Source of the DNA: a virus
IMG/VR virus record: IMGVR_UViG_3300034021_001440
Coordinates: 48,419 to 112,418 of that record
DNA length: 64,000 bases
Strand: one strand, 5' to 3'
Part shown: positions 1,927 to 48,140 of the stretch, in pieces
How positions within the stretch are numbered: position 1 is the stretch's first letter
Layout: the number at the start of each line of letters is the position of its first letter
Position numbers and translations under genes: made by a program
The notes under the pieces: generated by a model
Seen by the model: only the letters and a program-made list of their open reading frames with translations
What the model was told of the DNA's origin: nothing
Database searches by the model: none

Positions 1927-2277
1927 ATGACAAATCGTATTGGTGGCGACTTCAATCAAGACGCCATGGAAGCCTTTCGTGCCGCATATGCTCAACAACT
2001 GAGCACTCCCGATGAGGACGGTGTGGCCAATAACTCTGGTCTTCCGACGAATGTAGTGACAAATACTTCACCCTGGATCGAGCACACTGGGCTGTGGAAA
2101 TACCCCAGTGGCAAAGGTCCGGATGAAGATTTGAAAACTCCATTTGACCCGAATCAGTATCTTTCCGACGTTATCTCTGACGATGATGAGGAAGCCGACA
2201 GCTTGAGTGAAGAAGAAGTCGAGCACCTGATCAATGAAATCACTGGATCTGAGGACGAAGAAGAAGAGGCTGAGTAG
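1927..2277 (+). CDS. Hypothetical acidic protein, 116 aa
   Basis: The ATG lies 9 bases after the previous stop. The last third is strongly acidic (runs of D and E from about residue 85 to the end), and the middle carries a PWIEHTGLWKYPSGKGPDEDL stretch interrupted by Trp residues. There is no signal peptide or membrane segment. The final G of its stop codon (TAG, 2275-2277) is the first base of the late element that serves the next gene. I do not recognise a family. An acidic scaffold-like or DNA-mimic role can be imagined but is unsupported. Confidence 0.55.
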   Translation: MTNRIGGDFNQDAMEAFRAAYAQQLSTPDEDGVANNSGLPTNVVTNTSPWIEHTGLWKYPSGKGPDEDLKTPFDPNQYLSDVISDDDEEADSLSEEEVEHLINEITGSEDEEEEAE

Positions 2278-2284
2278 GGTAAAA
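2277..2284 (+). promoter_or_regulatory. Late element GGGTAAAA for the 2310 operon
   Basis: Exact GGGTAAAA ending 25 bases before ATG 2310; it begins on the last base of the preceding stop codon. It is one of fourteen exact copies found just before virion-type genes in this window. Confidence 0.6.
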
Positions 2285-2309
2285 AGCATACATAGCCTGT
2301 GGTCCAATT

Positions 2310-2951
2310 ATGTTCTTCACTGCCCCGAGAGTGATTCCTGAACCTCCCGTTGATGGATTCCCCTCCACCAACCCTCGTCAGGCAGGGTACAACGAGGACA
2401 TCAAACAGCGTCTGGCTGGTAAAGACGAGGAAGGGAAAGAGCGTCTTCTGGATGCCCTGCGCTTTGCGTTTTGGATGAGCCCGAATCTGCCCGGCGTTGA
2501 GCTTCTGGTCAGTTCTGCACCTGTGATTACTCTCCACGACCTGGAGGGTGAGTTTGACATTACCATCAATCACGGAAGCGCCGCCTTTTCCGTTCATGAG
2601 AGTCCCTATGGCGATTCTACTCTGGAGGATCAAAGGGTGGCCCTCGGTCGCAGGTTGCTGAAGAACTGGAACACTTTGATCGCTCATTTGCCCGAAGGTT
2701 TTATTATCTACGGTCCCGACGTTGATCTCAACCACCCCACTTTCCCTGTTCGGGAAAGAGTTTTGCAAGGCTTGGGTTTTGCTCCGGTAGAGGCCAACGG
2801 TGACCGCATGGCGATTGTTCGCGGTGGCCAACTGTCTCCTTTGACTGCTTTTCAGCACCACGAACTGACCGGGGAGGATGGCCCGGCTCATTTGTACAAT
2901 CAGCGTCTCTGCGTCGAAGAGATTGTCTGGGGCAGCAAGGAGGCTGAGTGA
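2310..2951 (+). CDS. Hypothetical virion-associated protein, 213 aa
   Basis: It begins 25 bases after a GGGTAAAA element and heads a run of touching or overlapping genes that reaches 4910. The C-terminal half reads RRLLKNWNTLIAHLPEG, then FIIYGPDVD, then RERVLQGLGF. This layout faintly resembles the end of a GNAT acetyltransferase fold, but I see no acetyl-CoA loop. The stop TGA (2949-2951) shares its last base with the next ATG. The late-type promoter supports a structural or assembly role. Function is not recognised. Confidence 0.6.
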   Translation: MFFTAPRVIPEPPVDGFPSTNPRQAGYNEDIKQRLAGKDEEGKERLLDALRFAFWMSPNLPGVELLVSSAPVITLHDLEGEFDITINHGSAAFSVHESPYGDSTLEDQRVALGRRLLKNWNTLIAHLPEGFIIYGPDVDLNHPTFPVRERVLQGLGFAPVEANGDRMAIVRGGQLSPLTAFQHHELTGEDGPAHLYNQRLCVEEIVWGSKEAE

Positions 2952-3661
2952 TGTACGGTTCCAACTTTGATTTCAGTGGTGTTGTTCTTCCCGGCGCTGG
3001 CGGTCAAATCAACGCCAGCAACGCCATCAGTGGCGATCAACTTGCCAAAATGAATAAGACCGGTAAAAAATGGCGTCCCGACGCAGATGGTTTTATGTCC
3101 AACCACAATGAGAACATCCTGAAGATGAACGCCGAGCACCGCGAAAAGCGTGCTGGGCTTGTCAATCGGGACTATAACGAGAACGCTGACGGCAAAGATG
3201 CGATGAAGGAAATCTTCGATCGCAAAAAAGCTCGAATGTCTTCTTTCAAAGAGATGAAGAAGAATGAGTATGGCTTTGCGGAAGGGGACTCGCAAGACTC
3301 AGAGCTTCTGAGCATGCCCCTGCCAGCATTCAAAGACCACACCTGCAAAGGCCCTGGTTGCCCGATCTGCACCAGCCAGAAGTATGCGGAGATGTCATTC
3401 AGAGAGTGGAGCACCGAAAAGCGCAAGGCGCTCAAAGAGGGCAAAGTCAAGGGCGAATTTGCGGGTCCTGACATGAGCTTTCCGATTGCCAGCCCTGTGG
3501 ATGTTGCCGCAGCATGGTCTTCTGTGGGCCGCGCCGCCAATCCTCGGGCCATCATGAAGCGCATCATCTCGATTGCCAAAAAGCATGGCTGGGAGTCGGG
3601 TCTCCCGGAGTCCGTCAAGAAACGTCTGGCAGCTGGTGAATCTGGTTTGCCAACGGAGTGA
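2951..3661 (+). CDS. Conserved phage protein with CxxxxCxxC motif and SFPI/GRA domain
   Basis: I chose ATG 2951, which overlaps the previous stop by one base, over a GTG at 2948. The product has 236 residues. The middle carries C132-K-G-P-G-C137-P-I-C140, a possible metal site. The C-terminal part (about 177-225) reads FPIASPVDVAAAW, GRA, then IAKKHGW and LPE. Comparable SFPI...D...A...GRA...A...G...LPE blocks occur near the end of many phage head-maturation or structural proteins; I recall DUF6582 as the likely family but cannot check. The N-terminus is low in hydrophobics. A head-associated role is inference. Confidence 0.6.
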   Translation: MYGSNFDFSGVVLPGAGGQINASNAISGDQLAKMNKTGKKWRPDADGFMSNHNENILKMNAEHREKRAGLVNRDYNENADGKDAMKEIFDRKKARMSSFKEMKKNEYGFAEGDSQDSELLSMPLPAFKDHTCKGPGCPICTSQKYAEMSFREWSTEKRKALKEGKVKGEFAGPDMSFPIASPVDVAAAWSSVGRAANPRAIMKRIISIAKKHGWESGLPESVKKRLAAGESGLPTE

Positions 3662-3664
3662 GCC

Positions 3665-3985
3665 ATGGGGCTTGACATTCTTGGCGTAGTTGCCTCAATT
3701 GCGACTATCATATCCGGACTCGGTTGGGTTCTTGACAGAAACTCCAAAAAGTTTGCGTCAATGCAACAAGCGAGTTCCGACATGCTGACAAACTTTGGTG
3801 CCAAAGTTGAAAGACTCGACCAAACTCTCACCGAGGTTCGTCTCACTCTTCCAGAAAAGTATGTGACGAAAGAAGAGTTATTGATGCACATCCGGGGGGA
3901 AGAAACCTGGCACAATTCGATTGATCGCCGCCTTGACGATATCCGTGACGAACTTTCCTCCCTACGTGAATGGAGACACCGATGA
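3665..3985 (+). CDS. Small membrane-anchored coiled-coil protein
   Basis: The 106-residue product has one hydrophobic segment at about residues 4-22 (ILGVVASIATIISGLGWVL) and then a long charged helix with heptad-like spacing to the end. It starts three bases after the previous stop, and its own stop overlaps the next start as ATGA (3982-3985). One N-terminal membrane helix plus a coiled coil fits holin-associated or XhlA-like phage proteins, and also small virion membrane-interacting proteins. I cannot decide between these. No lysin gene is visible next to it. Confidence 0.55.
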   Translation: MGLDILGVVASIATIISGLGWVLDRNSKKFASMQQASSDMLTNFGAKVERLDQTLTEVRLTLPEKYVTKEELLMHIRGEETWHNSIDRRLDDIRDELSSLREWRHR

Positions 3986-4581
3986 ACTTTGATGACTACG
4001 ACTGGGAACGCCTTGAAGGTCTTGGCTTTGCTGAGGATGCTCGTGAAGAGCTGAAGAAAGCATGTTGGAAAGGCTATGAGGCCATTGGTGTAAAACAAAA
4101 GAATGGGCGCACCGTGCCCAACTGTGTGCCTAAGAAGAAAAAGAAAAGTCTGAGTTCTAATCACGGGGAGCAGTTTGACATCAACAAGCCAAACGACATC
4201 AATGACATGGCCATCGGCAATGCCCTGCCGAAAGTGCCTGCCACCGGCCCTGTGAAAAATCCACAGATGGGTGAGCAAAAGATTCGCATGCCTCGCATGG
4301 AAGAGATCAAAAAAGCCAACGCCAATAATGGGCAACTGGCCATGGCTGCTGCTCCCAACTATGCCGAGACTGAAGACTTCAACGATGCGTTTCATTCCGA
4401 CGAGCCAAATGCCCGGATGATCATCACGCAACTGCGAGTGATGCGAGAAAAGATTGACATCATGCTCGGAATGATGTATCCCGATGACAACTTTGAACCC
4501 TGGGTGGCAACCAAAATTGCCAACGCCGGAGTTGGAGTTGCCAGTGTTGCCGACTATCTTCGCTTTGGGGGAGAAACGTGA
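3982..4581 (+). CDS. Conserved phage protein with CWKGYEAIG motif
   Basis: I prefer ATG 3982 (ATGA overlap) to an ATG at 3970; the product has 199 residues. The N-terminus contains CWKGYEAIGVKQKNGRTVPNC, a short motif that I recall from several unrelated phage proteins. It is followed by a Lys-rich linker and a poorly conserved middle. The C-terminus (MMYPDDNFEPWVATKIANAG and a following ADYL) resembles the helical end of other phage proteins in which D/E-W-V-x-x-K-I precedes an ADYL motif. The function is unknown. It is part of the late-promoted run starting at 2310. Confidence 0.55.
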   Translation: MNFDDYDWERLEGLGFAEDAREELKKACWKGYEAIGVKQKNGRTVPNCVPKKKKKSLSSNHGEQFDINKPNDINDMAIGNALPKVPATGPVKNPQMGEQKIRMPRMEEIKKANANNGQLAMAAAPNYAETEDFNDAFHSDEPNARMIITQLRVMREKIDIMLGMMYPDDNFEPWVATKIANAGVGVASVADYLRFGGET

Positions 4582-4910
4582 TGTTTGGATCATTTCCTGA
4601 CGATGTGCTTGAGGATTTCTTTCAGAGCTATGCTGAAAGAATCGACAAAGACAAAATGCCTTGCAACAAACCCAAGGCACAAGCGGTGGGTGACTCACTG
4701 ACTGGAAAGTCACATGTAGTCAAGGCATGCGCAAACGGCAAAGAAAAAGTCATTCGCTTTGGGCAGCGCGGTGTGAAAGGGTCACCAAAGAAAGAGGGTG
4801 AGTCCGCAGCATACGCAAGTCGTCGCAAGCGTTTCAAAACTCGGCACGCAAAAAATATTGCCAAAGGCCCCATGAGTGCGGCCTACTGGGCAAATAAAGT
4901 TAAATGGTAA
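4581..4910 (+). CDS. Small basic phage protein with RFGxRG...RHxxNI...AAYWA motif
   Basis: ATG 4581 shares a base with the previous stop TGA (4579-4581); an upstream GTG at 4578 is less likely. The 109-residue product ends with a very basic domain: CANGKEKVIRFGQRGVKG, then RRKRFKTRH and SAAYWANKVKW. I recall this as a conserved phage/cyanobacterial domain of unknown function. The positive charge suggests nucleic-acid contact, which is inference. It is the last gene of the 2310 run; the next gene has its own late element. Confidence 0.6.
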   Translation: MFGSFPDDVLEDFFQSYAERIDKDKMPCNKPKAQAVGDSLTGKSHVVKACANGKEKVIRFGQRGVKGSPKKEGESAAYASRRKRFKTRHAKNIAKGPMSAAYWANKVKW

Positions 4911-4913
4911 CAA

Positions 4914-4921
4914 GGGTAAAA
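4914..4921 (+). promoter_or_regulatory. Late element GGGTAAAA for the kinase operon
   Basis: Exact GGGTAAAA ending 27 bases before ATG 4949. The downstream genes 4949, 5479 and 6722 follow without another recognisable promoter, so the kinase-like protein is predicted to be expressed late. Confidence 0.6.
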
Positions 4922-4948
4922 CCCTACATATAATGTCTCTGTCCGGCA

Positions 4949-9900: not shown

Positions 9901-11878
9901 TGAGTACAACGCAGATATGACCTATCTACGTGGCACGGTTATTCCCCTCAAGGAGTTTTTCTCAGAGTACGTTGTTGACCAGGATAACGGCTCCGAAAGT
10001 CTTGGCATCATCTTCCACCGAGTTCCTGTGGAAGGCGCCGATACTGTCACGACCTCGGCTTCAGTTGCGGTTCAAACCGCACAAGTCATGACGACTCCGT
10101 TTGTGACGAATCCAACGTTTGGCCGTCCCGAGATCATTCGTTTCAATGCGTTGAAAGTCTCGCAGCTTGAGAACCCGAAGAACGGTATCTCCGTAATTCA
10201 AGTCACGAACGGACTCATCGGAGGACCGATTGAGTACATGCGAGTGATCGGACTTTCCTCGAACGTTATCACGGCAGTTCGCAACTACTACCCCGAATAC
10301 GCCCAGGGTACTCTCCCTACGACGTGGCCTTCCGGTACAAAAATTACTCCTTGCGTGAGCACCGGGTATCCCGAACCCTCAGTCTATGACCCGGACTGGG
10401 CAACCACCAAGAACACAGTTCTTCGCTACTACGAAGTGATGGGCTTCGCTCGTTCCCTGGTGGCTCCTTTCCTGATTCCCCAGTATGCTGGGGAGCGAGT
10501 CCTGTACAATGCTACACTGCCTCTGGCTCCAATAAACGGGTACGCAAACACAGCAGCTCCGTGGCCTGTGGAGTTCAACAACCCTTCAACCATTCTGGCA
10601 AACAATCACACCTGGACTTTTGTAGGATATTTCGACTATTCGCGTGGTTTGCCCAAGTATCAAACAAACGAACTCTCCCGGAAACTGGCAGCTGATTATC
10701 AGACTTATGGAACGTGGGGTGGCAAAATCACTTGCTTTGGTGCCGGGGAAAGCGGCGCTCTGGTTGTCTCTGGCGACTTCCGCGAGTCTGCCACACTGAA
10801 CTATTTCCAGAACAACACTCCGCTTCAGAACTTCAACGATCGCGTTGTCTACGCTTCGCCGACTCCGATCGACTATCCCGCCCCGGTGCTGGTCTACTCC
10901 GTCGACGATCTCACCCCACAGTTCACTGGTGTCTACAATCCTTCAACAGGTCAAGTCACCGGTCAAACTTCGTTCGAACTCAAGCGCGGCGGATACCGAA
11001 TCCCCGCATCCCAACTCTCCAACTTTGGTGTTTTGGTGTTCCTGGGCGGTGTTGCTCAGCTCCCCGTGACTGCCTACACAATCAACGGTAGTGAAATCAT
11101 CTTCACTGAGCCTCCCCTGGTTGGCACAGCTTGCGACATTCGTGTCATCACGACGGACGACCAAAACAAAACTCTGGAAGTCGTTCCCTTCGCCATCGGC
11201 GCACCTTTCAACGGTTCAAACGTCGATTTCCCCTTGACTCCGGACTTGGAGGGATTGACAAACGGCAACTCCCTGGTGTTCCTTGGTGGCGTTCTTCAGG
11301 ACCCTCTCGGCCCTCCCACACAGACCGACTTTGCCTACACTGTTGTCAATGGCACTGGTGGTGGTTTGTCAATCTCGTTCATTGGTGCTGCCCCGCAAAA
11401 AGGCACAACCATTGACGTTCGCGGTGTTCTTTCCGGCAACATCTATCGTACAGCCGGTGTGCCGATCGTGTTTATGTCGTCCACGGACGAAATCTCCGAC
11501 AAGTTTGACGGAGCTCGGACTGCGTTCCCGCTGGCGATTGATGGCGTTTCTCTAGATGCCTTCAAAGTCAATTCCGAGAACATGCTCGTGAACCTGGGCG
11601 GTGTGATGCAGATTCCCATCGCCAACGCTGCAAGTTCTCAGCTGGGTCTGGCATACAGCGTCGGTGTGAATCCGTCCTCCCAAGTTCTGGAAATCACTTT
11701 CGCCGTTCCCCCAACTTTCGGCACGACTTGCAACATTCGCGTTCTGTCTCAGGATGAGTTCATCACTTGCCCGTTGCCTGAGCTGTTGATCAACCAGAAC
11801 CTGAAAGCAGGTCCTGGCGTTGAAACTTCGATCGACGGAGAGCTGATTGGTCTGGATGAAGGTCTCATTGGCGGGTAA
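6947..11878 (+). CDS. Large virion structural protein with beta-helix and VFLGGV repeats
   Basis: ATG 6947 (MAATKIILKRSS...) is chosen over a TTG at 6932, because the same kind of N-terminus starts the 11927 gene. The product has 1643 residues. Residues 1-75 form a module (KRSSLPGKRPNTNNLEAGEIA) also seen in the 11927 product. Around 110-230 lies a beta-helix-like region with LPRGVSIIGMDLKKSEV. I recall this from the very large structural proteins of T4-like cyanophages. The C-terminal 300 residues contain three repeats of a ~100-residue unit with VFLGGVxQ and GTxxDIRV, related to the 30491 product. It probably sits in the tail or baseplate periphery. Exact location is inference. Confidence 0.75.
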   Translation: MAATKIILKRSSLPGKRPNTNNLEAGEIALNTNANEPGLFFEVTDGQIVKAGPTAYLPDAPTVSPARGELWVDTDTKSLSIGTPTNEWQKVAAPFLGGTAALTVFVAPDFPEATDSLANDGQSVPFVTINRAILEVTKKIILDANNGLSSGNNRYLIVLAPSSHCVVNGPGATLGEFTANFDSPYTEVTQQALQQFNVPTVGGLILPRGVSIIGMDLKKSEVHPVYVPKYTHPAFPINYKQTSTGPVYQNQPLSSIFRWSGNTYVSNFNCFDKLTERVVNSVRVDETTGVAIFSSPRPHGLNFNDFVQVTYSNIADQAGATFANGAYYANPVNSFEFQLSLNNWETLGTTGVLASTLPTSFTLPVSNGKVKLQVDNIYPYYIPSDGVSYELSNYSHHRLSVFKNCSLQDLNDFYIKVQLAFPTLFGGSVDKNVATAPEYQIVAEAQTLYPQNILSNSASNSSPYENQVNHRSNYGMANVDADGEIVSGFKSIIVNSSTAVILQKDPCAYEVYADSDQIWRTLTTTAQSRMPLDTPIWSVPTDFQLEILNEASIPNIRYYYTTLLVTSGQSTGLTDIDNDFRHFGFRIRGAGAYMQAQSTYTIGAAIGCWAMGGALMNLTSATSNFGSIAFQAEGFAGIGTLGGATQVGQGFLQSGIVRPLALTEPQVVSDFQKKILPLGSRVVHIGDDPTNAEVTLIYLRQAFDPASILPFSLKPGSAVFLGDATCTYVAYFVDNGEPTCILSESNPAVNPYAPGGAILRVRKSDSNLPSGGVSETSFPYIRRFIDPRADTEKCYGFYVESTNPGSQAPQTGAVLRLNQVGKDLSTTIKRNYQFDPGQFGGIAQTFTVDQVETVQYNFSLNYNNKVSDSAQSTAYAVYASLSDNSGPWIQSYPVNGVQVPFNTQEGNYITNNYRNYYAAENNLWSALYYSTTFNPENGPTKVSPNKADSPFVPAAILDRQENIRDAWQGYVPDPYYSYYISGVPAEYNADMTYLRGTVIPLKEFFSEYVVDQDNGSESLGIIFHRVPVEGADTVTTSASVAVQTAQVMTTPFVTNPTFGRPEIIRFNALKVSQLENPKNGISVIQVTNGLIGGPIEYMRVIGLSSNVITAVRNYYPEYAQGTLPTTWPSGTKITPCVSTGYPEPSVYDPDWATTKNTVLRYYEVMGFARSLVAPFLIPQYAGERVLYNATLPLAPINGYANTAAPWPVEFNNPSTILANNHTWTFVGYFDYSRGLPKYQTNELSRKLAADYQTYGTWGGKITCFGAGESGALVVSGDFRESATLNYFQNNTPLQNFNDRVVYASPTPIDYPAPVLVYSVDDLTPQFTGVYNPSTGQVTGQTSFELKRGGYRIPASQLSNFGVLVFLGGVAQLPVTAYTINGSEIIFTEPPLVGTACDIRVITTDDQNKTLEVVPFAIGAPFNGSNVDFPLTPDLEGLTNGNSLVFLGGVLQDPLGPPTQTDFAYTVVNGTGGGLSISFIGAAPQKGTTIDVRGVLSGNIYRTAGVPIVFMSSTDEISDKFDGARTAFPLAIDGVSLDAFKVNSENMLVNLGGVMQIPIANAASSQLGLAYSVGVNPSSQVLEITFAVPPTFGTTCNIRVLSQDEFITCPLPELLINQNLKAGPGVETSIDGELIGLDEGLIGG

Positions 11879-11880
11879 AA
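11873..11880 (+). promoter_or_regulatory. Late element GGGTAAAA for 11927
   Basis: Exact GGGTAAAA. Its GGG is the last codon (Gly) of the upstream gene and its TAA is that gene's stop. It ends 46 bases before ATG 11927, a longer gap than the usual 22-28. Confidence 0.5.
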
Positions 11881-14735: not shown

Positions 14736-14743
14736 GGGTAAAA
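14736..14743 (+). promoter_or_regulatory. Late element GGGTAAAA for fibre 2
   Basis: Exact GGGTAAAA, 34 bases before ATG 14778, just after the stop of fibre 1. Confidence 0.55.
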
Positions 14744-16739: not shown

Positions 16740-16745
16740 TGACAA

Positions 16746-16770
16746 GGGACCTTCGGGTCCCTTTTCTTTT
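16746..16770 (+). terminator. Rho-independent terminator with TTCG loop
   Basis: GGGACC (16746-16751), loop TTCG, GGTCCC (16756-16761), then TTTTCTTTT. It lies 6 bases after the fibre 2 stop and directly before the next late element. Confidence 0.9.
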
Positions 16771-16772: not shown

Positions 16773-16780
16773 GGGTAAAA
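16773..16780 (+). promoter_or_regulatory. Late element GGGTAAAA for fibre 3
   Basis: Exact GGGTAAAA, 25 bases before ATG 16806 and immediately after a terminator, so it must start new transcription for this gene. Confidence 0.65.
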
Positions 16781-16805: not shown

Positions 16806-19800
16806 ATGGCGGTCCCGAATCCCCCATTCAACCCAAACAACCGCATTCCAAACGACCCTTTCAACTCTATTAATGTTCCTACCTTTAATACAAGTTTTGG
16901 CCCCATGATCATTGGGTCTGGACTCAGTATTTCCGGTATCGGGAATCCTCAGACTCTTTCCGCTACTGGTGGCGGTGGTGGAGCGGTCAATCAGGTTCTT
17001 GGCGGTGTGGGCATCTCGACGTCCCCATCAACTGGAACCGTATATGTCAATAACACCGGGGTCACCTCGCTGACGGCTGGCTCCGGTATTGCCATTTCTG
17101 CTAGCACTGGCGCCATCACAATCAGTGCTTCGGGTGTTGGCACTGGCACCGTGACCTCCGTTGCTACAGGCACTGGCCTGACCGGCGGTCCGATTATCGC
17201 CAGTGGCACCATCTCTCTGGCAAATACTGCAGTATCCCCTGGCACATATAACTATTCTACCATCACCGTCGATGCTCAGGGTCGTCTGACTGCTGCTTCC
17301 AGTGGTGCTGCTCCCGTAACAAATATTGCGACTGGAACTGGGCTCACTGGCGGTCCGATCACAACCACTGGGACCATCGCTCTTGCCAACACCTCCGTTA
17401 CGGCGGGCAGCTACACCAATGCCAACATCGTCGTTGACGCGCAGGGTCGTATCACCTCTGCCTCAAACGGAACAGCTTGCACTGGCACCGTCACTTCTGT
17501 GGCAACTGGCACAGGGCTGACCGGTGGGACAATCACCACTGCGGGAACGATTGCCCTGGCAGACACTGCTGTGTCCCCCGGTACTTACAACTTTGCAACT
17601 ATAACCGTCGACCAACAAGGTCGTCTCACTGCTGCTTCGACTGGAACTCCTCCAACTCCCGGAAGCACCACGGTTACTTCCCCGATTACTAATAGCGGTA
17701 CTGCCCTCAACCCGAACATTGGTATTCAAACAGCAACCACAGGTCAGCTCGGTGCGGTTCAAGTCGGCAGCAATATTGATGTTTCCTCTGGCGTCATCAG
17801 TGTTGCCTCTACCGTAGGTGTTGCGACTGCGGTTAGCAACCTCGGTGTGACAACAATCACTGACAACGTAACCTCTACCTCTTGCAACAGTGCCCTGTCT
17901 GCGAACCAGGGACGGGCTCTGCAACAGCAGATTAACTCCCTCCTGGTGACAGGGACGGTCGAACTCGCTGGTACCATTGATGGTAGCACAGGTTTTGTTG
18001 CAACAACAACCTCACTGGGGTCTAGCAAAGGCTACACCGTTGGTGCCGTTCTGCCCGCTGCATCCGCAACCACTGTCAACAGCTACGTCATTGTAACAAC
18101 TCCTGGAACAATGACACCTCCTGGCGGTGTTTCCACTGCCGTAACTCGTGGTGACTGGTGGCTGGTGACCCAGTCTTCCCCTGGCGTCTACGTCTGGAGC
18201 TACCTGAACGTTGGTTTCGACCCTCCGATGGCCAGCACAACGACCGCTGGTCTCGTTGAGCTTGCCACGGATGCCGAGACACAAGCGGGCACGAGTGCCT
18301 CTTTGGCAGTCACCCCGGCTGGCGCCTGCGCAACTTATATTCCTTTCACTCAACTGACTGCCAAAGGCGCTCTGATCTCTGCCAGCGGTGCAAACACTGC
18401 TCTGACTGTGACGGTTGGTTCAGATGGTCAGGTTCTGACTGCTTGTTCTGCCTCCCCGAGCGGACTGTGCTGGACTGCTTCTTCGGTTCCCGCCATTCCT
18501 TGCGCTTGCATCACTGCCAAAGGTGATCTGATAACGGGCACTGCGGCAAACACACCCATTGCCCTCCCTGTGGGAACCAATGGACAGATTCTCTATGCGG
18601 ACTCCGCCTGCAGCACGGGGCTGACGTGGGGAACTGCTCCCATCACTTGCCTCGCGTTTGATGCCAAAGGTGACCTTCTGACTGGTTTTGGCCCTGACTC
18701 TTATGGCATTCTGGGCGTTGGCAGCAACGGCTGCGTGCTCGTTGCGTGCTCAGCTTGTGCCCAAGGAATGTGCTGGGGTCGTGGCGTCAACTCTGCCACC
18801 CCGACTTGCGAAGGTATTGTATACGGTTGCACACTGGCAACCGCAACTGCCCTTGGCTGCAACGCTCTGACCACCGGCACCGGTGCCAATAGCGTGGCCA
18901 TTGGTACTCTGGCACTGACCAACAGTGGCGCGGGTACTGACAACGTTGCTGTTGGTTATGCCTCGCTTTGCTGCAACACGACCGGCTCTTGCAACACCGT
19001 TGTCGGCTCTTGTGCCAACTGCCTTGCTACAGCCACAACCGGAAACACTGCTGTTGGTACCAAAGTTCTGAGCTGCAACAACACCGGAAATAACAACACT
19101 GCCGTTGGCTCTCTTGCGCTTCGCGATAATGCTTCGGGCTCCTACAACACCAGCGTTGGCTGGGCCGCTGGATTCAACCTCACCTCTGGCTGCTATAACC
19201 TGGCCCTTGGCATCAACACCTGTCTTCCCAACCCCGCAGGAAACTGCCAGCTGGCCATTGGTTTTGGCAGCGGCACCAACTGGCTGACCGGTGACAGCAG
19301 CAAGCACATTCAACCTGGTGCTGGCATTCGCGACTGTGCCGGTTGTCTCGGTTGCGCTGGACAGTTCCTGTGCTCCACTGGCACTGCCATTCAGTGGGTG
19401 ACTGGTGTGGGTGACACTCCTGTTGGCACCGTAAACTGGTTCGGTGCTGCGACTGCCCCTGTTGGCTGGCTTGTTGCTGACGGTCGTGCCGTGAGCCGCA
19501 CCGCTTATGCTGCCCTCTACGCTGTGATCGGTACCACCTACGGTACTGGTGATGGCACTTCCACGTTCAACCTGCCCGACCTGCGTGCTGTGTTCATCCG
19601 TGGCGTTGATAACGCTGGCGGCACTGCTCGCGGCGTTGACCCAGGTCGTGCGTTCGGTAGTTTGCAGGCGAACTCCGTTCAGTCTCACTGCCACCAAGTG
19701 CAAGTTATCGCGGGTGGTGCTGGTCGCCCTGAGTGGTTGTTCCCCAACAACGCTTGCCCCATTGGAGCCGGATATCCGGCGCCCACTGGTGGTGCCGTCC

Positions 19801-21008: not shown

Positions 21009-21016
21009 GGGTAAAA
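21009..21016 (+). promoter_or_regulatory. Late element GGGTAAAA for fibre 4
   Basis: Exact GGGTAAAA, 27 bases before ATG 21044. Confidence 0.6.
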
Positions 21017-23434: not shown

Positions 23435-23458
23435 GGGGACCTTCGGGTCCCCATTTTT
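23435..23458 (+). terminator. Rho-independent terminator with TTCG loop
   Basis: GGGGACC (23435-23441), loop TTCG, GGTCCCC (23446-23452), then ATTTTT. It has nearly the same stem and loop as the terminator at 16746 and again stands just before a late element. Confidence 0.9.
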
Positions 23459-23464: not shown

Positions 23465-23472
23465 GGGTAAAA
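23465..23472 (+). promoter_or_regulatory. Late element GGGTAAAA for fibre 5
   Basis: Exact GGGTAAAA, 25 bases before ATG 23498, directly after a terminator. Confidence 0.65.
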
Positions 23473-27209: not shown

Positions 27210-27217
27210 GGGTAAAA
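27210..27217 (+). promoter_or_regulatory. Late element GGGTAAAA for 27244
   Basis: Exact GGGTAAAA, 26 bases before ATG 27244, starting 2 bases after the fibre 5 stop. Confidence 0.6.
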
Positions 27218-29675: not shown

Positions 29676-30466
29676 ACCGCTTCGTGTTTCTTGCTGGGCT
29701 GCCTCGCACAGGTTCCACTGTGCTTGGCGCCCTTTTGAATCAGCACCCGTTTCTGTATCCAACGGAGACGTCGATGGTTCACCGCCACATTCACGAAGTT
29801 TCAAACTTTTTTGTAGGAGAGTATCCTCTCTACGACACGAACGACCCCAACTCACCCCTGTGGGGAATCGTGAGAGGTATTCTGCAAGGGGCGTATGAAC
29901 ACGTCAAGGGGAAAGTAGTCATTGAGAAAAGCAGGGGGTGGTCGTGGGAAATCGACATCCTGAGAAAGGCTTTGGGGGAGCCACCCAAGTTCGTCGCCAC
30001 TGTGCGGTCCATTCCCGAAATTATCTCTTCTTTCATCCTCCTGGCCAATAAAATTGGCGATGACTCAAAGATTCATACACAGTTGAGGGAGACAGGTTAT
30101 CCCATAACCACCTGGAACCTGTCGCACTTCATCTGGGAAAAGTACATCGATGCTGACTGGCAAGGTTTCCGTCAAGCATACGAAACAAACACTGACTTGT
30201 TTCACCTGATTGAGTACGACGACCTTGTGCAAAAACCTGAGGAAGTTCTCAATAATTTTTATTCTTTTATTGAGGTGCCTCCCATTAAAGTTCACACGGA
30301 CTCCCTTGTGCGCGGTGCCGTCGAAAATGACGATGCCTTTGGGTTGCCAGGACTGCACGACATCCGCTCAGACTTGTCTCGCACTTCTCCCCCCGCACTT
30401 GAAGTTCTCGGAGAAGAGTGCTACAACTTTTGGGAGGCTCAGCGCCTGGAATTTTGGCGAGGGTAA
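29672..30466 (+). CDS. PAPS-dependent sulfotransferase family protein
   Basis: The 264-residue product has the 5'-phosphosulfate-binding loop near the N-terminus (F-L-A-G-L-P11-R12-T13-G14-S15-T16), the 3'-phosphate-binding region V108-A-T-V-R112-S-I-P-E-I-I-S-S-F, and a late YDDLVQKPEEVL helix. These are the hallmarks of the sulfotransferase family, which moves sulfate from PAPS to a hydroxyl or amine. Length is normal for the family. It is coupled to the glycosyltransferase by ATGA, suggesting a sugar that is then sulfated. Its final Gly codon and stop form part of the next late element (30461-30468). Confidence 0.8.
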   Translation: MNRFVFLAGLPRTGSTVLGALLNQHPFLYPTETSMVHRHIHEVSNFFVGEYPLYDTNDPNSPLWGIVRGILQGAYEHVKGKVVIEKSRGWSWEIDILRKALGEPPKFVATVRSIPEIISSFILLANKIGDDSKIHTQLRETGYPITTWNLSHFIWEKYIDADWQGFRQAYETNTDLFHLIEYDDLVQKPEEVLNNFYSFIEVPPIKVHTDSLVRGAVENDDAFGLPGLHDIRSDLSRTSPPALEVLGEECYNFWEAQRLEFWRG

Positions 30467-30468
30467 AA
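30461..30468 (+). promoter_or_regulatory. Late element GGGTAAAA for 30491
   Basis: Exact GGGTAAAA; GGG TAA is the last codon plus stop of the sulfotransferase. It ends 22 bases before ATG 30491. Confidence 0.6.
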
Positions 30469-30490: not shown

Positions 30491-30985
30491 ATGGCTGCGC
30501 TCAATTTCCCAACCTCACCAACACCGGGTCAGCTGTATCCAAGTCCAGCAATCTCTGGTGTGTCGCAATACCAGTGGGACAACACTGCTGGTGTGTGGAA
30601 CACCGTTGCCACTTTCGTGAAGCTCAATAATCAAAGTGCGTACAACAGTTATGTTTGGCCAGTCGCAGACGGTCTGGCTGGGCAGCAACTGGAAACGGAC
30701 GGTTCCGGGAATCTGTACTGGGATGCCGCTTCGAATCCGACCTTCTTCTATCTGCAACTGGACAGTTCAGTTCCGTTCGACGGAATTCAAACAATTTTCA
30801 CCCTCATCGATCCTGCCACACTCAACGCCTACTCCCCGACGCCAAACTCCAACATCGAGGTTTTCCTCGGCGGTGTTCCTCAGCAGTTTGGCACAGCCTA
30901 CACCGTGGCTGGTTCGACAATTACCTTCACCAACCCGCCCATCGCAGGCACTTCGTTCTTTGCGACAACCGTCATTCAAGGGTAA
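30491..30985 (+). CDS. Small fibre-associated protein with GQLYP N-terminus, 164 aa
   Basis: The N-terminus (FPTSPTPGQLYPSP, then QYQWDNTAGVW) matches those of the 35280 and 38021 products, so these three form a second anchor family. A NSYVWPVADGLAGQQLETDG stretch recurs in the 31016 and 38021 products. The C-terminal half carries one VFLGGVPQQF...GT unit like those repeated at the end of the 6947 product. It has its own late element. The likely role is a short fibre or adaptor on the virion surface. Confidence 0.7.
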   Translation: MAALNFPTSPTPGQLYPSPAISGVSQYQWDNTAGVWNTVATFVKLNNQSAYNSYVWPVADGLAGQQLETDGSGNLYWDAASNPTFFYLQLDSSVPFDGIQTIFTLIDPATLNAYSPTPNSNIEVFLGGVPQQFGTAYTVAGSTITFTNPPIAGTSFFATTVIQG

Positions 30986-30987
30986 AA
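30980..30987 (+). promoter_or_regulatory. Late element GGGTAAAA for 31016
   Basis: Exact GGGTAAAA; GGG TAA is the Gly codon and stop of the 30491 gene. It ends 28 bases before ATG 31016. Confidence 0.6.
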
Positions 30988-34000: not shown

Positions 34001-34960
34001 GCTCTTCGTCAACAAACCGGGGGATGCAACACTGCAGTGGGTGCCAGCTCCGGTCAAGGTCAACCGGGATCCACTGGTGCTTGTAACACCACTGTTGGTT
34101 ACTTTGCCGGTTCCTGCATCACGACTGCCACTGGTGTCTCAGCCATGGGATGGTGCGCCGCCTGTTCTGTTTCTACAGGACTGAACGCAACGGTTTTTGG
34201 ATCTGAAGCTGGATGCACTCTCTCAACTGGTATCAACAACACTCTAATTGGCCAACGCGCTGGTTGCGCAATAACCACAGGAGCCAGTAACACTGCGGTT
34301 GGTCAAGCCGCTGGTAAAGAAGGTATAGGAGGAACAAACAACGTTTTGATGGGAGACAACTCCGGTCGTTGTATGACGGGCGGTAACTTCAACTCCGTAC
34401 TTGGGTCTCAAGCCTTTAATGGTGCAACTGGTTCTACGCCTAACAACCTGGGTCAGTTCAACACGGCCCTTGGCTATCAGGCCATGGGTATCTTCACGGG
34501 TGGGAATAACAACATTGCCATCGGTTATGCATCTGGCTATACTTTCTGCAACCTGGCGGGCCTCAACAACCAGATTGTGATGGGTAATGCCTCACATACC
34601 AATGCCTTCATTCAAGTCGCATGGACGGTTGTTTCCGACGAGCGCAAGAAAAAGATCAAAGGACCCGTGGCTCTCGGCCTGGACTTTGTCAAAAACCTTG
34701 AACCCATCGAATACCAGTTTATCGACGAAGAGACTCAAGAGATCAAAGACGAGACATACCGTTATGGTTTCTCAGCTCAAAAGGTTCGTGCCCAGGAAGT
34801 TGACCCTGAGCATCCGGTGATTGTGGGTGGCTCGGATGAAAAAGGTTGGAATCTTACCACCGACTACATGTTGCCGCCTCTGGTCAATGCCATTCAAGAG
34901 CTCTCTGCTCAAGTTGAAGAATTGAAAGCAAAACTTGCTGCCCTCGAGGGTAAAAATTAG
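31016..34960 (+). CDS. Giant NTAVG-repeat fibre with Cys-rich repeats and S74 chaperone
   Basis: The product has 1314 residues. After a short head (MALTRAQLLMGNCAQGC..., then NSYIWPNADGIAGSQLTTDG) a tandem array fills about residues 150-1195. Much of it has a strict 17-residue period beginning N-T-A-(I/V)-G, as in NTAIGFCSLVSNSAGCL. This is the YadA-head-like left-handed beta-roll repeat. Most units carry one or two Cys at fixed places (position 7 or 10 and the residues before the next N), which is unusual. The C-terminus is an S74 chaperone with S1207-D-E-R-K1211 and a terminal coiled coil. It is expected to form a long trimeric fibre matured by self-cleavage. Confidence 0.85.
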   Translation: MALTRAQLLMGNCAQGCVLPGQVQGVKQGAGVCIANDGTISFFAGTSTGVVKTNNPTAFNSYIWPNADGIAGSQLTTDGLGNLAWGPAPGDLFIKLQPTSTQTGAFANITGQAGCVAMTFIAAPNQFAIQTCDGDASLFGVTAGRGSGCVATNTAFGACSLFTNTTGNSNTAIGYKTLCSNQVGNCNTAIGFCSLVSNSAGCLNTAVGYQSQTFTSTGNCNTSIGFCSLYNNTNGGCNTAVGNETLYCNTSGLCNIAVGPRALYCNVSGCCNIAAGLCALQNNTTGCSNLAIGAFASNCNTIACFNFAIGDCALFNNQTVGCNMAIGCKAMFCTTIGTRNLAIGTCSQYNTTTGCYNTTLGHCSIGRGVNAGCCNVAVGFCSLFENTAGLCNIAIGQETMACNTSGCCNIGVGAFALRSNSSGCCNIGIGSQALCCLTTGSCNVGVGTFALCGNTAGLSNTAVGDSAMQNNNTGCFNAAVGSDSLCCIVSGCYNTAAGSCSMVNTTVGASNVGVGFRAMEANQDGSCNVAVGQCALGASSTADCNVVLGFEAAADNCGNRNVVIGHQSGFNGGGNPSDNVIVGALAGCSMTTACCVTLVGACAGQTITNGDFNTHIGALAGFGTNYTGVCNSSLGLRSLCALTTGACNTAVGADAMCSATSGCLNVAVGNQSLQSLVSACGNTALGQTAMQNAVSGCFNVAVGTCSLINNASGCYNTVVGVEAGGAGGASFSCATFVGFNAGVAATTAQLATAVGWCSAANLSTGNCNTAVGACSIFNLSTGCFNTAVGNNAGVSLTTGGCNTAIGFNALCSAASTDANTAVGWCSAASLTTWPNTAVGFRSLTTMATGQYNTAIGTGSLRDLASGVNNTAVGDGAGKCLASGSCNTLIGSNTGQLAGSSFNNATLVGNGAGANLSTAPLATAVGFCAAQALSTGLYNTAVGGCALFSLTSGNLNTAVGMNAGKNMTTGCYNTAFGQGALRDVTTANQNTGFGTGALRQQTGGCNTAVGASSGQGQPGSTGACNTTVGYFAGSCITTATGVSAMGWCAACSVSTGLNATVFGSEAGCTLSTGINNTLIGQRAGCAITTGASNTAVGQAAGKEGIGGTNNVLMGDNSGRCMTGGNFNSVLGSQAFNGATGSTPNNLGQFNTALGYQAMGIFTGGNNNIAIGYASGYTFCNLAGLNNQIVMGNASHTNAFIQVAWTVVSDERKKKIKGPVALGLDFVKNLEPIEYQFIDEETQEIKDETYRYGFSAQKVRAQEVDPEHPVIVGGSDEKGWNLTTDYMLPPLVNAIQELSAQVEELKAKLAALEGKN
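31500..34600 (+). repeat. Tandem 51-bp (17-residue) NTAVG repeat array
   Basis: The coding array inside the 31016 fibre repeats every 51 bases over long stretches, for example units beginning NTAIGYKTL, NTAIGFCSL, NTAVGYQSQ, NTSIGFCSL, NTAVGNETL and NIAVGPRAL in direct succession. The boundaries given are approximate. Longer linker units (for example around 32700-32850) interrupt it. Confidence 0.8.
34948..34955 (+). promoter_or_regulatory. Late element GGGTAAAA inside the end of the 31016 gene
   Basis: Exact GGGTAAAA within the last codons (EGKN) of the fibre, ending 23 bases before ATG 34979. This spacing favours ATG 34979 over ATG 34970 for the next gene. Confidence 0.55.
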
Positions 34961-37984: not shown

Positions 37985-37992
37985 GGGTAAAA
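37985..37992 (+). promoter_or_regulatory. Late element GGGTAAAA for 38021
   Basis: Exact GGGTAAAA, 28 bases before the GTG start at 38021. A TATAAT-like string (37997-38002) also lies downstream of it. Confidence 0.6.
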
Positions 37993-42310: not shown

Positions 42311-42919
42311 ATGAAAAAACACTTCTATGTTTATTATTCCTATGAGGAGTGGGGTAGAGGATACATCGGCCGCCGCGAATGTATTTGTTTGCCCGAGGAG
42401 GACACCAAATACTTTGGGTCTTTCAGGGACAAATCTTTTCAACCCACGAGCAAAATAATCCTCGCCACTTTCAACACACGAGAAGAAATGTGTCAGGCAG
42501 AAGTTGATTTGCATCTACTATTTCGAGTTGATGAAAATCCTCACTTTGCAAACAAAGCACGACAAACCTCCAACAAATTCTGTATGGATATGCAAGGAGA
42601 AAAAAATCCCAACTTTGGGAATAGGTGGAAGTGGACGGAGGAACAAAGGAGAGCGAGAAGCCAACTCTGTAAAGGAAGAAAAGGCACACCTCACTCCGAA
42701 AATACAAAAGAAAAAATTCGACAAACTCGAAAAGCAAAAAATTGTGGCATTGGAAATCAAAACGCACGGGGGAATTCATTCTCTCTCACCGATGAACAAA
42801 AAGAAAATAGGCGAAGAGCAGCCCTGGCACGGCCCATCCTTGAGTGCCCCGTGTGCGGAAGGGAGTGCAAAGGCACTGCCGGCGTCGCCAACCATTTGAG
42901 AAGCCACGGAGACTTTTGA
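42311..42919 (+). CDS. GIY-YIG homing endonuclease with NUMOD3 and zinc finger
   Basis: The 202-residue product opens with a GIY-YIG core: FYVYYSYEEWGRGYIGRR (residues 5-22), with GSF and ILATFNTREEM later. A NUMOD3-type DNA-binding segment follows (GEKNPNFGNRWKWTEEQRRA and a second copy with HSENTKEKIRQTRKAKN). The protein ends in a C2H2-like finger, CPVCGRECKGTAGVANHLRSH. This is the layout of free-standing phage homing endonucleases. It lies between intact genes and I see no intron around it. A lower GC content than its neighbours fits recent mobility. Confidence 0.85.
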   Translation: MKKHFYVYYSYEEWGRGYIGRRECICLPEEDTKYFGSFRDKSFQPTSKIILATFNTREEMCQAEVDLHLLFRVDENPHFANKARQTSNKFCMDMQGEKNPNFGNRWKWTEEQRRARSQLCKGRKGTPHSENTKEKIRQTRKAKNCGIGNQNARGNSFSLTDEQKENRRRAALARPILECPVCGRECKGTAGVANHLRSHGDF

Positions 42920-44142: not shown

Positions 44143-44758
44143 AGTTCGAGGTTTCGACCAGTTTCTCTACACTTTTGACGTTCCGTTTCGCATTCTGAAT
44201 ACTGCTCAACAGATTGCTTTTTCTCTTGACTATCACGAAAATCACTACAACCTCACTTCGAAAGTTGAAGACTCAATTGGTTTGCCAGAGATGGCAATCG
44301 TGCGAGAGTGGATCGACGAACAGCTGGAGGAACTGCGTCAGGAAGAACGGTTCGAGTGTGACTCAGTCAAGACTTGCATCGAGTGGTTCAACAAGTCTTT
44401 TCCAGGAATGTGGCATCACGCACACACTCACGACAACTCTTTCCTGAGTGGCCTGATCTACCTGACTGAGTCCAACGCAGAGACCTGGTTCAGTATTCCC
44501 AGCATCTGGAGCAAAGAGTACACGATGCTGAATCTGAGTCCTGCAAATAAAGGTCTCACGTTTCTAAAGTATCCTACAACTGTGGGGAAGATGATTGTCT
44601 TTCCTTCGAGTTTACTTCACAGTGTATCTGAACATAATAATCCAGAGCCCCGTTTCTCATTGGCATTCAATGCCTTTCCGTCGGGACTCGTCGGAAGCAG
44701 GTCGGAAACGCACCATCGCCGTTTCATGCACGTTACCGTTAATCAGACTACCCTTTAA
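44135..44758 (+). CDS. 2OG-Fe(II) oxygenase family protein
   Basis: The 207-residue product matches the putative 2OG-Fe(II) oxygenase type common in cyanophages: W93-H-H-A-H97-T-H99-D-N-S-F-L-S-G-L-I-Y-L, a later G-K-M-I-V-F-P-S-S-L-L-H162, and R173 in RFSLAFNAFP. These supply the iron ligands and the 2-oxoglutarate Arg. The substrate is unknown; DNA, protein or small molecules are all possible. Its start overlaps the ThyX end by 8 bases, and its stop overlaps the next start by one base. Confidence 0.8.
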   Translation: MDKVRGFDQFLYTFDVPFRILNTAQQIAFSLDYHENHYNLTSKVEDSIGLPEMAIVREWIDEQLEELRQEERFECDSVKTCIEWFNKSFPGMWHHAHTHDNSFLSGLIYLTESNAETWFSIPSIWSKEYTMLNLSPANKGLTFLKYPTTVGKMIVFPSSLLHSVSEHNNPEPRFSLAFNAFPSGLVGSRSETHHRRFMHVTVNQTTL

Positions 44759-44982: not shown

Positions 44983-45950
44983 CTGATAGACCGAAACTAG
45001 AGAGCGCCTTTACTCTCGACCACAATCCATCGCCCTTAGTGGTAGTTGACTTTCACGTTTACCTTCACGACGTCAAGCGATGGTTTGAGGATAAGATTGA
45101 AGGCTCCTTTAGTGAAGAGGTCGAAGATAAACTCATCAAGGGGGCGTGGGCACTGAAGGTCAATCGCGGACCTGACATGCTCCCTCGTCATTCCCACCGC
45201 ATTCTTGTCGTTGCCGACTCTCGTTTCCAGGACACAGGAAACTACTGGCGCGACAAGTTCATGAAAGAATCACAAGAAGTTCAAGAGGCTTGGAGCAACT
45301 ATGCTGAGAAAGAGGGCAAAGACCTTGCTGAGTTACCTACGCATTACAAGGGAACGCGAACTGAAAAGGATGCCACCTTTTGGCGAGTATTTGACATTGG
45401 GTGGGAGTATGTCAACGCCTACTTCCCGGTTTTCTCTCAGGAAGGTTACGAGGCAGACGACATTGCGGGCGCTATCTATCGCATCAGTCGGGATAACCTT
45501 GGCGACGGCATTGCTCATAAAAGGCAAATCCTCCTCTCGACGCTAGACCGCGACTGGTCTCAACTTGTAGATGAAGAGCACCGTGTCTATTTCGCCAACT
45601 CCAGAGTACCGTTCCCTTCGGAAAAAATACAAGAGAGACTTGTGGGTAACCAGGGCGTCATCGAGCATACTGCTCATCGCATGGGTTTTGAACTCGATCA
45701 CCCTAAGAACCTCGCTGACTGGAAAGTCAAGCACGGGGACATGGGGGATAATCTTCCTCCAGGTAGTCCTAAGTGTTTGTTTGATCTTTGCGAGGCAAAC
45801 CCTCATTACACTATTGAAAAAGCGGCACCGTGGTACGTGGAGTTGGTAGAGTGTATGAATGATCCCGCGTCGAACATTCGTGACGACCACTTTGAGCAGA
45901 CTCTTAGACAGTTTGCCAAGATTTGCCTAGAGGCCCCAGTCAAACTCTAG
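44979..45950 (+). CDS. rnh: 5'-3' nuclease, T4 RNase H / FEN-1 family
   Basis: The 323-residue product has the acidic centres of the family in order: D24 in VVVDFH, D-S-R-F with YWRDKF, YKGTRTEKDATFW, E158-A-D160-D161, L189-D190-R-D192-W, and the helix-hairpin region H252-G-D254-M-G-D257-N. T4 RNase H removes RNA primers and flaps from lagging strands, and the same replication role is expected here. It closes the operon that starts at 42971. A late element follows at 45952. The gene symbol is by analogy with T4. Confidence 0.85.
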   Translation: MTDRPKLESAFTLDHNPSPLVVVDFHVYLHDVKRWFEDKIEGSFSEEVEDKLIKGAWALKVNRGPDMLPRHSHRILVVADSRFQDTGNYWRDKFMKESQEVQEAWSNYAEKEGKDLAELPTHYKGTRTEKDATFWRVFDIGWEYVNAYFPVFSQEGYEADDIAGAIYRISRDNLGDGIAHKRQILLSTLDRDWSQLVDEEHRVYFANSRVPFPSEKIQERLVGNQGVIEHTAHRMGFELDHPKNLADWKVKHGDMGDNLPPGSPKCLFDLCEANPHYTIEKAAPWYVELVECMNDPASNIRDDHFEQTLRQFAKICLEAPVKL

Positions 45951-45951
45951 C

Positions 45952-45959
45952 GGGTAAAA
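45952..45959 (+). promoter_or_regulatory. Late element GGGTAAAA for the tail module
   Basis: Exact GGGTAAAA, 23 bases before ATG 45983, starting 2 bases after the nuclease stop. Confidence 0.65.
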
Positions 45960-45982
45960 CCATTTAGATTGACCGAGAAAGA

Positions 45983-46630
45983 ATGGCTGATGCAGCCTAT
46001 CAAGCAAAATACCTGGCGACTGCAAGGCTTCTTTGGGACGCTTCTCACGGCGTTCCGGAGGATATTCCTTCGGACTATTGTGAGTATCTTGAGCATGAGT
46101 ATGTTGATGGGGATATCTCTTTGGTTCCTCTTCTCCCTAAACTTGACTATACGGAGCACCTAGAAGACTGGGAAGTTGACGAAGCCATCGAGATGCTTGG
46201 CAAAGTCAAACCCGAAGACTGGCCCGACATTGCGGACATTGAGAGTATCTCCGCCGAGGCGCTGTTGCAAGATGAAGGCGAATATGACTTCGTTGAAGAC
46301 AACCTGAGCACTGCTGAGAAGACAGAGAGAGTTCTTGCGTCGGCAATCTCTTCCGTCTTCGGTGCTCCCGTCTCTGAAGTTCGCAGCGAAAAAGGATATT
46401 TCCCCAATCCCAAAAACCATTTCCTTCTGGAAGATGACGGTACGTTTGCTGGAACGTTTTCCCACGAAGGCAAAAAGTACTTGTTTGAAATCTTTCCTGA
46501 CGAGCAGGGTTGGACAGTGACATACCGAATGCACTGGAAAGACCTCAACGATTTGCCCGCCGTGGCAGACCAAGACAACGAGAAGAAAAATGACTACACA
46601 CGGCACGTTCGTAATCGTGGTTGGAGGTAG
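45983..46630 (+). CDS. Hypothetical tail-module protein, 215 aa
   Basis: It is very acidic (EHEYVDGD, DWEVDEAIEMLG, EDWPDIADIESIS) with a C-terminal beta region (FPNPKNHFLLEDDGTFAGTF, FEIFPDEQGWTVTYRMHW). It is led by a late element and its end lies just before the baseplate gene, whose ribosome-binding site GGAGG (46623-46627) falls inside this gene's last codons. I do not recognise a family. The position suggests a tail-assembly chaperone or a minor tail protein. Confidence 0.6.
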   Translation: MADAAYQAKYLATARLLWDASHGVPEDIPSDYCEYLEHEYVDGDISLVPLLPKLDYTEHLEDWEVDEAIEMLGKVKPEDWPDIADIESISAEALLQDEGEYDFVEDNLSTAEKTERVLASAISSVFGAPVSEVRSEKGYFPNPKNHFLLEDDGTFAGTFSHEGKKYLFEIFPDEQGWTVTYRMHWKDLNDLPAVADQDNEKKNDYTRHVRNRGWR

Positions 46631-46632
46631 AG

Positions 46633-48129
46633 ATGGCAGCTTTCTTTGAAGGAGGTCCGATTCCTCTTCTTGGCGTCACACCTCAGGTCTTGTCAAATGT
46701 TGTTGGTCAAGGGCTGACTCAAATTGCTGCGGATCAAGTCAGCACTCTGGTTGGAGAGGTTTTTCAAGGTTCGGGTCAGTCTTTTCTGGCTGGACCCGGT
46801 CAGACGCTCCTCAGCAATGCCGCAAACAATATTCTCAACATCGGATTGAGTTCTGCTCTAGGTCAAGAGATCAGTGGTGTCTCTGGCCTCGATCTGACCA
46901 ACGGCCAACAGTTTTTGGCAAGTGTAATCACTCCGGACATTACTTCTACAATATCAGCTAACATTAATGACTCAATCGCTACAGCGTTAGAGAGTGCAGG
47001 GCCCTTTGGACCGGTGCTTTCAAGCGTACTGTCAAACGTCGGAGATGAAGTCGGCGGTGCAATAAATGGTTTTTTTGGCATAGGTGGTGGTGGTGGTGAC
47101 GGTGGTGAAGCAGCCGGTGAGGCACCGGGAACCAATCGACGTTTTCCGGGAGCCACCTCAGACGATCCTCCGGCAAATTATGGAGGAAACGCATACACAC
47201 TTGGCCCCTCAGGCGGCGACGTCACCTTCTCGTTGCAACCTGCCAATCAAGGACCTCAGCTGCAAGGGTTGGGCGAACTATCCAACCCCAAAACTCAAAC
47301 AGCGTTCAGCAATCTTAGTTACACTGGGACTCCGCCAAGCTTCGCCGGAGTGACATATGACGCAGAGAATCTGGCCAAGATCAGCAGCATGGGATCTCTA
47401 ACGTCAAGCAACAGTGTGGATCTCAGCTCATACTGGACAAACCCAACCACTGACGGCAGTTTCTCCAAAGAGACCTTCAGTGCTCAGCAAGCCCAAGGTT
47501 GGTCATTCATTTGCGCTCCTGAAGACATTAGCTGGGACCTGGCCAATGCGTCCAGCCGCGTCGATATCTTCGGAACCAACAACCCTCCGATTGTGGCGGG
47601 GACCAAGGGAATGAGAGATCTTTCGATCGGAAATGCTCTGGTGGAGGGCTTCACCAGGGGAGTGCAAATTGAAGACAAGGTTCGAGCACTCGAAGAGTTG
47701 TTGAAATACAACGCCAACACCTCCGACGGTTTCGTCAGCGTGCCCGTGTATGAGTTTCGAGCAAATGACAAGGCCTATGGATCTTCCTCGACTGAGCAAG
47801 GATACTTCATTATCAAGGACATCAAAGTAAAAGAAGACATGCGCGATTTGTCGGGTAATGCTACTCGCGCCCATGTTGACATTTCCTTGACACAGGTCCC
47901 TGCTTATCAGGTCAATAGTGGTCGAGACCAAGCAAGCAAGGTGACTACGGGAGCGAAGTCTGCTTTCATTACCTTGAACAAAAATGCAGTCAATGCCCAA
48001 GCAAACGGCAAAGGAGAAAGAAGCGGTCCGGCTGTTCCTAAAAACCAGAAGGCTGCTACCGGTAATCCTGGTCGCGGTGCTGGTGGTGGCTTAGACGCCC
48101 AAGCCATACCTAGTTTGACGAGACCATAG
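46633..48129 (+). CDS. Baseplate/tail protein upstream of tape measure
   Basis: ATG 46633 has GGAGG six bases upstream; an in-frame TTG at 46621 is less likely. The product has 498 residues. The N-terminal part is Ala/Gly/Val-rich, with a Gly-rich linker near 155-170. From about residue 290 it reads FICAPEDISWDLANASSRVD, PIVAGTKGMRDLSIGNALVE, then YFIIKDIKVKEDMRDLSGNA and VDISLTQVPAYQV. This layout resembles LysM-adaptor-like inner baseplate proteins of contractile tails (XkdP/gp53-type). The exact homologue is uncertain, but its place before the tape measure and hub supports a baseplate role. Confidence 0.65.
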   Translation: MAAFFEGGPIPLLGVTPQVLSNVVGQGLTQIAADQVSTLVGEVFQGSGQSFLAGPGQTLLSNAANNILNIGLSSALGQEISGVSGLDLTNGQQFLASVITPDITSTISANINDSIATALESAGPFGPVLSSVLSNVGDEVGGAINGFFGIGGGGGDGGEAAGEAPGTNRRFPGATSDDPPANYGGNAYTLGPSGGDVTFSLQPANQGPQLQGLGELSNPKTQTAFSNLSYTGTPPSFAGVTYDAENLAKISSMGSLTSSNSVDLSSYWTNPTTDGSFSKETFSAQQAQGWSFICAPEDISWDLANASSRVDIFGTNNPPIVAGTKGMRDLSIGNALVEGFTRGVQIEDKVRALEELLKYNANTSDGFVSVPVYEFRANDKAYGSSSTEQGYFIIKDIKVKEDMRDLSGNATRAHVDISLTQVPAYQVNSGRDQASKVTTGAKSAFITLNKNAVNAQANGKGERSGPAVPKNQKAATGNPGRGAGGGLDAQAIPSLTRP

Positions 48130-48132
48130 GGC

Positions 48133-48140
48133 GGGTAAAA
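48133..48140 (+). promoter_or_regulatory. Late element GGGTAAAA for the tape measure operon
   Basis: Exact GGGTAAAA, 27 bases before ATG 48168. Confidence 0.65.

Follow-up and report, generated by a model that had tools for sequence, protein, structure and literature searches.

A 64,000-nt stretch of a viral genome (positions 48419-112418 of a virus record of 112,418 bases; hereafter the window) repeatedly carries the octamer GGGTAAAA in front of its genes, which raises the question of whether this sequence is the promoter core of late transcription units and, if so, which factor reads it. This uncultured virus is related to the Synechococcus phage S-CBWM1 (54% identity in TerL and 56% in the primase), and the S-TIM5-type cyanophages are more distant relatives; Synechococcus is the host of the close isolate S-CBWM1. 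Matches to PHROG families were found for portal, major head protein, terminase, baseplate wedge and tail fibre, and also for DNA polymerase, primase, thymidylate synthase and nucleotide-reductase genes. A full-text search of openly licensed cyanophage papers found none that names the octamer.

Occurrence of the octamer in the virus record

We counted 17 copies of GGGTAAAA in the window, all on the plus strand and none on the reverse strand, against 1.73 expected by chance (mean of 100 shuffles; sd 1.40, maximum 6). The parent record holds 31 forward and no reverse copies, all of them on the coding strand, and the octamer is its commonest 8-mer. The preliminary description had listed 14 exact sites before named start codons and all 14 were recovered, exact and in place. 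With distances counted from the end of the octamer, they are located at 2277-2284 (25 nt to ATG 2310), 4914-4921 (27 nt to ATG 4949), 11873-11880 (46 nt to ATG 11927 of a tail protein gene, the TAA being here the stop codon of the upstream ORF), 14736-14743 (34 nt to ATG 14778, tail collar/fibre), 16773-16780 (25 nt to ATG 16806, tail fibre), 21009-21016 (27 nt to ATG 21044, tail spike/virion protein), 23465-23472 (25 nt to ATG 23498, virion protein), 27210-27217 (26 nt to ATG 27244, tail fibre), 30461-30468 (22 nt to ATG 30491, virion protein), 30980-30987 (28 nt to ATG 31016, virion protein/tail spike), 34948-34955 (23 nt to ATG 34979), 37985-37992 (28 nt to GTG 38021, tail protein), 45952-45959 (23 nt to ATG 45983) and 48133-48140 (27 nt to ATG 48168, tail-associated lysin). 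Twelve of them show the 22-28 nt spacing described for most sites, and the other two lie at 34 and 46 nt.

That list was correct but incomplete, as three more exact sites are present in the window. The one at 1896-1903 lies 23 nt from ATG 1927 and is exact in 24 of 33 aligned sequences. The other two are ambiguous: 57842-57849 is within an ORF, with no ATG at the usual distance, and 59895-59902 lies 7 nt past the stop codon of a sigma factor gene and within the next ORF; both recur at matching positions in contigs L109 and L110. The looser copies held up only in part. The one-mismatch form GGGTAAAG does precede 6947, but at 48 nt from the start, and of the hybrids reported before 42311 and 53531, the former is a one-mismatch form, GGGTATAA, at about the usual distance, while the latter start has no recognisable copy. 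The gene behind GGGTATAA (42311-42919) is homing-endonuclease-like.

Genes preceded by the octamer

The proposal that all sites serve virion-type genes was mostly borne out, since the matched downstream genes belong to tail, fibre, spike, collar or virion families; the genes at 1927, 2310, 4949 and 45983 have no PHROG match. As read by eye from tables, no site of the window lies directly before the primase, exonuclease, thymidylate synthase, deaminase, sigma or nrdB genes. As had been noticed, the octamer twice follows directly after a terminator: plus-strand intrinsic terminators at 16744-16763 and 23435-23452 lie immediately 5' of the 16773 and 23465 sites, respectively, and two further post-terminator sites were identified by eye outside the window (25600 and 42438 of the record).

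We then assigned sites to genes in S-CBWM1 by position against its annotation, read by eye from tables. They precede tail fibre, tape measure, sheath region, portal, peptidase, baseplate and major capsid region genes, together with a few others, namely an HNH nuclease, an NMN adenylyltransferase, a PhoH-like gene and two tRNAs (sites at 19573 and 24755). None was found directly before gyrase, DNA polymerase, primase, thyX, dUTPase, nrdAB, psbA or either sigma gene. From the type of gene that the octamer precedes, we infer that these genes are expressed late. Two observations support the earlier reading of the octamer as a mark of late units: no site directly precedes a replication or nucleotide-metabolism gene, and some sites are placed right after terminators. 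Site clustering in S-CBWM1 was also considered as proof of lateness and dropped; its 20.8 kb gap without sites could well arise by chance (P about 0.15), so clustering was left out of the evidence.

Conservation across the clade

The S-CBWM1 genome contains 33 forward copies of GGGTAAAA and one reverse copy, and the octamer is again the commonest 8-mer. It was present in all 49 related IMG/VR records searched, nearly always on a single strand of the record, and 79 TerL loci (708 kb, oriented by TerL) gave 271 copies on one strand versus 1 on the other. When this record, S-CBWM1 and 90 locus stretches were pooled, the scan of genome and relatives that had been suggested earlier yielded 400 forward and 2 reverse copies, with 249 of the 400 located 18-40 nt before the ATG of an ORF (opened by ATG, at least 60 codons) versus 11.8% of random positions. 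For about 16% of the pooled sites, no ORF opened by ATG begins in the next 150 nt. Since closely related contigs contributed many of the loci, the pool contains redundancy, and a flank-similarity filter reduced it to 179 non-redundant sites. One-mismatch forms showed far lower start-proximal fractions in the pool, many at background; only GGGTACAA, GGGTATAA, GGGTAAGA and GCGTAAAA were modestly enriched near starts, with few sites, and loose variants were not retained.

At seven orthologous sites the octamer is conserved at least as well as its 30-base upstream flank, and strikingly better at five; at six of the seven it is 85-100% conserved, compared with 51-74% for the 30 upstream bases. Conservation of the exact sequence differs from site to site, from 8 of 10 aligned sequences at 4914-4921 to 7 of 25 (24 relatives and this record) at 2277-2284, and the site at 44523 of the record is exact in only 1 of 50, which indicates that sites come and go.

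Anatomy of the octamer and its upstream region

Across the 179 non-redundant sites, the octamer provides the sole strong columns. Counting its first G as column 0, a C or A is usually found just 5' of it, C or T at column 9, and T13, A14 and A/T15 are weakly favoured. The last three are where the start point would fall if the octamer spans about -15 to -8, a placement that follows the register of the SigB -10 element GGGWAW (PMC11156646). No positional signal was detected upstream of the octamer in these sites. The search for a -35 element covered fixed-offset 4- to 6-mers, TTGAC, TAGGC and GTTT, and returned only weak purine or terminator-like k-mers; neither GTTT nor GTTTAA is enriched at any fixed upstream distance, and TAGGC occurs as 5 scattered copies among the 179 upstream regions, at no fixed distance.

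Could the octamer be something other than a promoter? An artefact of composition, or of a repeated protein motif, would fit the two window sites that lie within ORFs (57842 and 59895), and we give it practically no credence: as an account of the whole set it is already contradicted by the 17 copies against 1.7 expected, by the 400 to 2 strand count and by the location of most sites between genes or at gene ends with diverged flanks. A role in RNA, as a translation enhancer or a leader processing site, would explain the fixed distance to the start codon and the restriction to the coding strand. We nevertheless regard it as very improbable, since sites directly after terminators would be uncoupled from upstream transcripts, two S-CBWM1 sites precede tRNA genes, the octamer is absent before replication genes and a start point would account for the weak signal downstream. 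On the other hand, the strand bias, the placement at 18-40 nt and the conservation above the flanks all support the earlier interpretation of the octamer as a -10 element. We therefore consider it very likely that GGGTAAAA acts as the core of a clade-wide late promoter. The comparisons below refine this reading in that the letters of the octamer come closest to a SigB/SigF-type -10 element whose -35 half is missing, and not to the T4 box TATAAATA.

Candidate sigma factors

The clade encodes two sigma factors, of the gp142 and gp152 types, and both genes occur together in contigs L099-L110, with the exception of G045, in which gp142 was not found. The window codes for the gp142 type alone (59252-59887, plus strand); the record breaks off within nrdA, shortly before the place where gp152 is expected. 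The gp152 gene is present in L109 and L110, the two contigs that come closest in gp142 identity. The gp142-type protein of the window matches Sigma70_r2 with 60.1 bits (curated cut-off 24) and carries a C-terminal HTH, with no region 3 detected. The S-CBWM1 counterpart is located at 101633-102247; in this type region 2 is RpoS/ECF-like and the C-terminal HTH is intact, and it may serve a middle promoter class. In L132 (G040) and L138 (G039) the gp142 region reads through one TAG, probably located upstream of the start or due to a sequencing or assembly difference. A SpeD-type S-adenosylmethionine decarboxylase gene lies near the sigma gene (60252-60578), and S-TIM5 also has SpeD.

The gp152 gene of S-CBWM1 lies downstream of nrdB-nrdA. 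Its best NCBIfam models are those of SigB/SigF/SigG (53.4 bits, below cut-off), and in a profile search against the PDB the best true sigma factor was 8x6g_H, the SigB of a Staphylococcus aureus open complex; the top row was an unrelated repeat protein that matched through a short helix alone. In S. aureus SigB, R110, R100 and R97 contact -15G, -14G and -13G (PMC11156646). With residues counted along the profile alignment, these correspond to R103, R93 and H90 of gp152, so that two of the three GGG-reading arginines would be kept and the third is replaced by His; neither R93 nor R103 varies among eight sequences, one of which is the SigF of S-TIM5. No Pfam match to region 4 exceeded the cut-off, and a weak 17-bit piece falls in the region 3 area. 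The AlphaFold model (pLDDT 64, pTM 0.41; low confidence) shows three C-terminal helices; with Foldseek TM-scores of about 0.3, it contributes little more than a sigma2-sigma3 helix order. Taken from these comparisons, gp152 appears to consist of SigB-like regions 2-3 with no recognisable region 4. A copy of GGGTAAAA was also seen about 125-180 nt past the gp152 stop in six of seven contigs examined (L099 at 10850; L101, L103 and L105 at 10854; L109 at 17489; L110 at 17288), and is absent in L100.

The same promoter could be read by the gp142 type instead, or by gp142 and gp152 jointly. The gp142 type is the sole sigma factor seen in the record, its region 2 is strong and it is kept alongside the octamer across the clade. 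However, its HTH matches Pfam region 4 weakly, with extra helices in the model, and its region 2 is closer to RpoS, SigK and ECF factors than to SigB; moreover, a sigma factor with an HTH and no region 3 is expected to use a -35 element, and none was seen at the 179 sites. We consider this reading unlikely. Still less probable is that the phage borrows the group 3 sigma factor SigF of its host. In Synechocystis, SigF requires TAGGC at -32 and GGTAA at -12 (PMC2758279), and GGGTAAAA does contain the GGTAA found at -12 in the host pilA1 promoter, but TAGGC is missing at any fixed distance, the clade has its own SigB/F-like sigma factor, and the S-TIM5 lineage, which likewise infects Synechococcus, uses different letters. 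The gp152 type is the likely better candidate as reader of the octamer. We hold it probable that GGGTAAAA is a -10 late promoter core and that a gp152-type sigma reads it, with less confidence than for the promoter itself, because the gp152 assignment, though likely, is one that we infer.

The sister lineage S-TIM5

In S-TIM5 (JQ245707.2, L095-L098) we found 36 copies of GTTTAAAG where 12 were expected, 22 of them 18-40 nt before an ATG versus 5% of random positions, and 12 copies of GGGTAAAA, none of which is at that distance. The smaller stretch of S-TIM54 (L140) agrees, with GTTTAAAG in the same position. The two octamers have 5 of 8 letters in common, and GTTTAAAG is likely the late promoter element of this lineage, as judged from its placement. 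The T4 box TATAAATA showed no positional enrichment before S-TIM5 starts. At 18-40 nt before many virion genes, GTTTAAAG is often followed by an AT-rich stretch (TAGATAT-like); alternatively, GTTTAAAG could be a SigB-like -35 element (GTTTWW) with an AT-rich -10 behind it.

A proposed late switch and its relation to known systems

In the mechanism that we propose, a phage sigma factor of the S-CBWM1 gp152 type would bring host core RNA polymerase to the octamer and read it with its sigma2 and sigma3 domains, contacting G at about -15 to -13 and flipping the A at -11, as SigB does at GGGWAW. RNA would start about 6-8 bases downstream of the octamer, so that the leaders of virion genes would measure about 15-20 nt. 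A -35 contact would apparently not be needed, given that no signal was seen upstream of the sites and that no -35-reading domain can be recognised in the C-terminal third of gp152. As the gp152 gene lies downstream of nrdB-nrdA with no octamer immediately before it, the protein could be made earlier and then turn on the virion genes.

Late promoters of the T4 type consist of a TATAAATA box and have a -10-only architecture. The proposed system resembles them in its virion genes, its phage-encoded sigma and an 8-base element that, as far as can be seen, is -10-only, with no -35 element at the 179 sites; it differs, as noted previously, in the letters, GGGTAAAA not being TATAAATA-like. T4 gp55 resembles sigma70 in domain 2 only (PMC2988020), whereas the candidate gp152 has a SigB-like region 3 besides region 2. 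Group 3 promoters of the SigB/SigF type combine a GTTTWW -35 with a GGGWAW -10 (PMC11156646). Every exact GGGTAAAA site contains GGGTAA, which fits the latter, but GTTT is lacking about 14 bp upstream and the octamer exceeds this -10 element in length and in rigidity. The cyanobacterial SigF promoter has the GGTAA core in common with it; TAGGC is missing here and the sigma candidate is phage-encoded. The freshwater Microcystis phage Ma-LMM01 is likewise a cyanophage with a late gene class; its late promoters are similar to the SigA sites of the host, and gp55 is absent from this phage (PMC5780444).

Neither phage sigma factors nor -10-only late promoters are new in kind; what appears to be new is the combination seen here. 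Its origin could be that the phage lineage took up a SigB/SigF-type sigma factor, lost the -35-reading domain and settled on a rigid late promoter of 8 bases that is -10-only, while in S-TIM5 sigma and box drifted together to GTTTAAAG; we regard this history as possible, at somewhat less than even odds. If true, the T4-style late promoter architecture would have arisen a second time, independently. The octamer offers a testable late switch of eight letters for the widespread and little-studied S-CBWM1-like cyanophages, of which S-TIM5 is distant kin, and it would allow late transcription units to be called from sequence alone. Finally, GGGTAAAA and GTTTAAAG would make up a natural pair of sigma-box variants in which the evolution of promoter specificity may be followed without a -35 contact.
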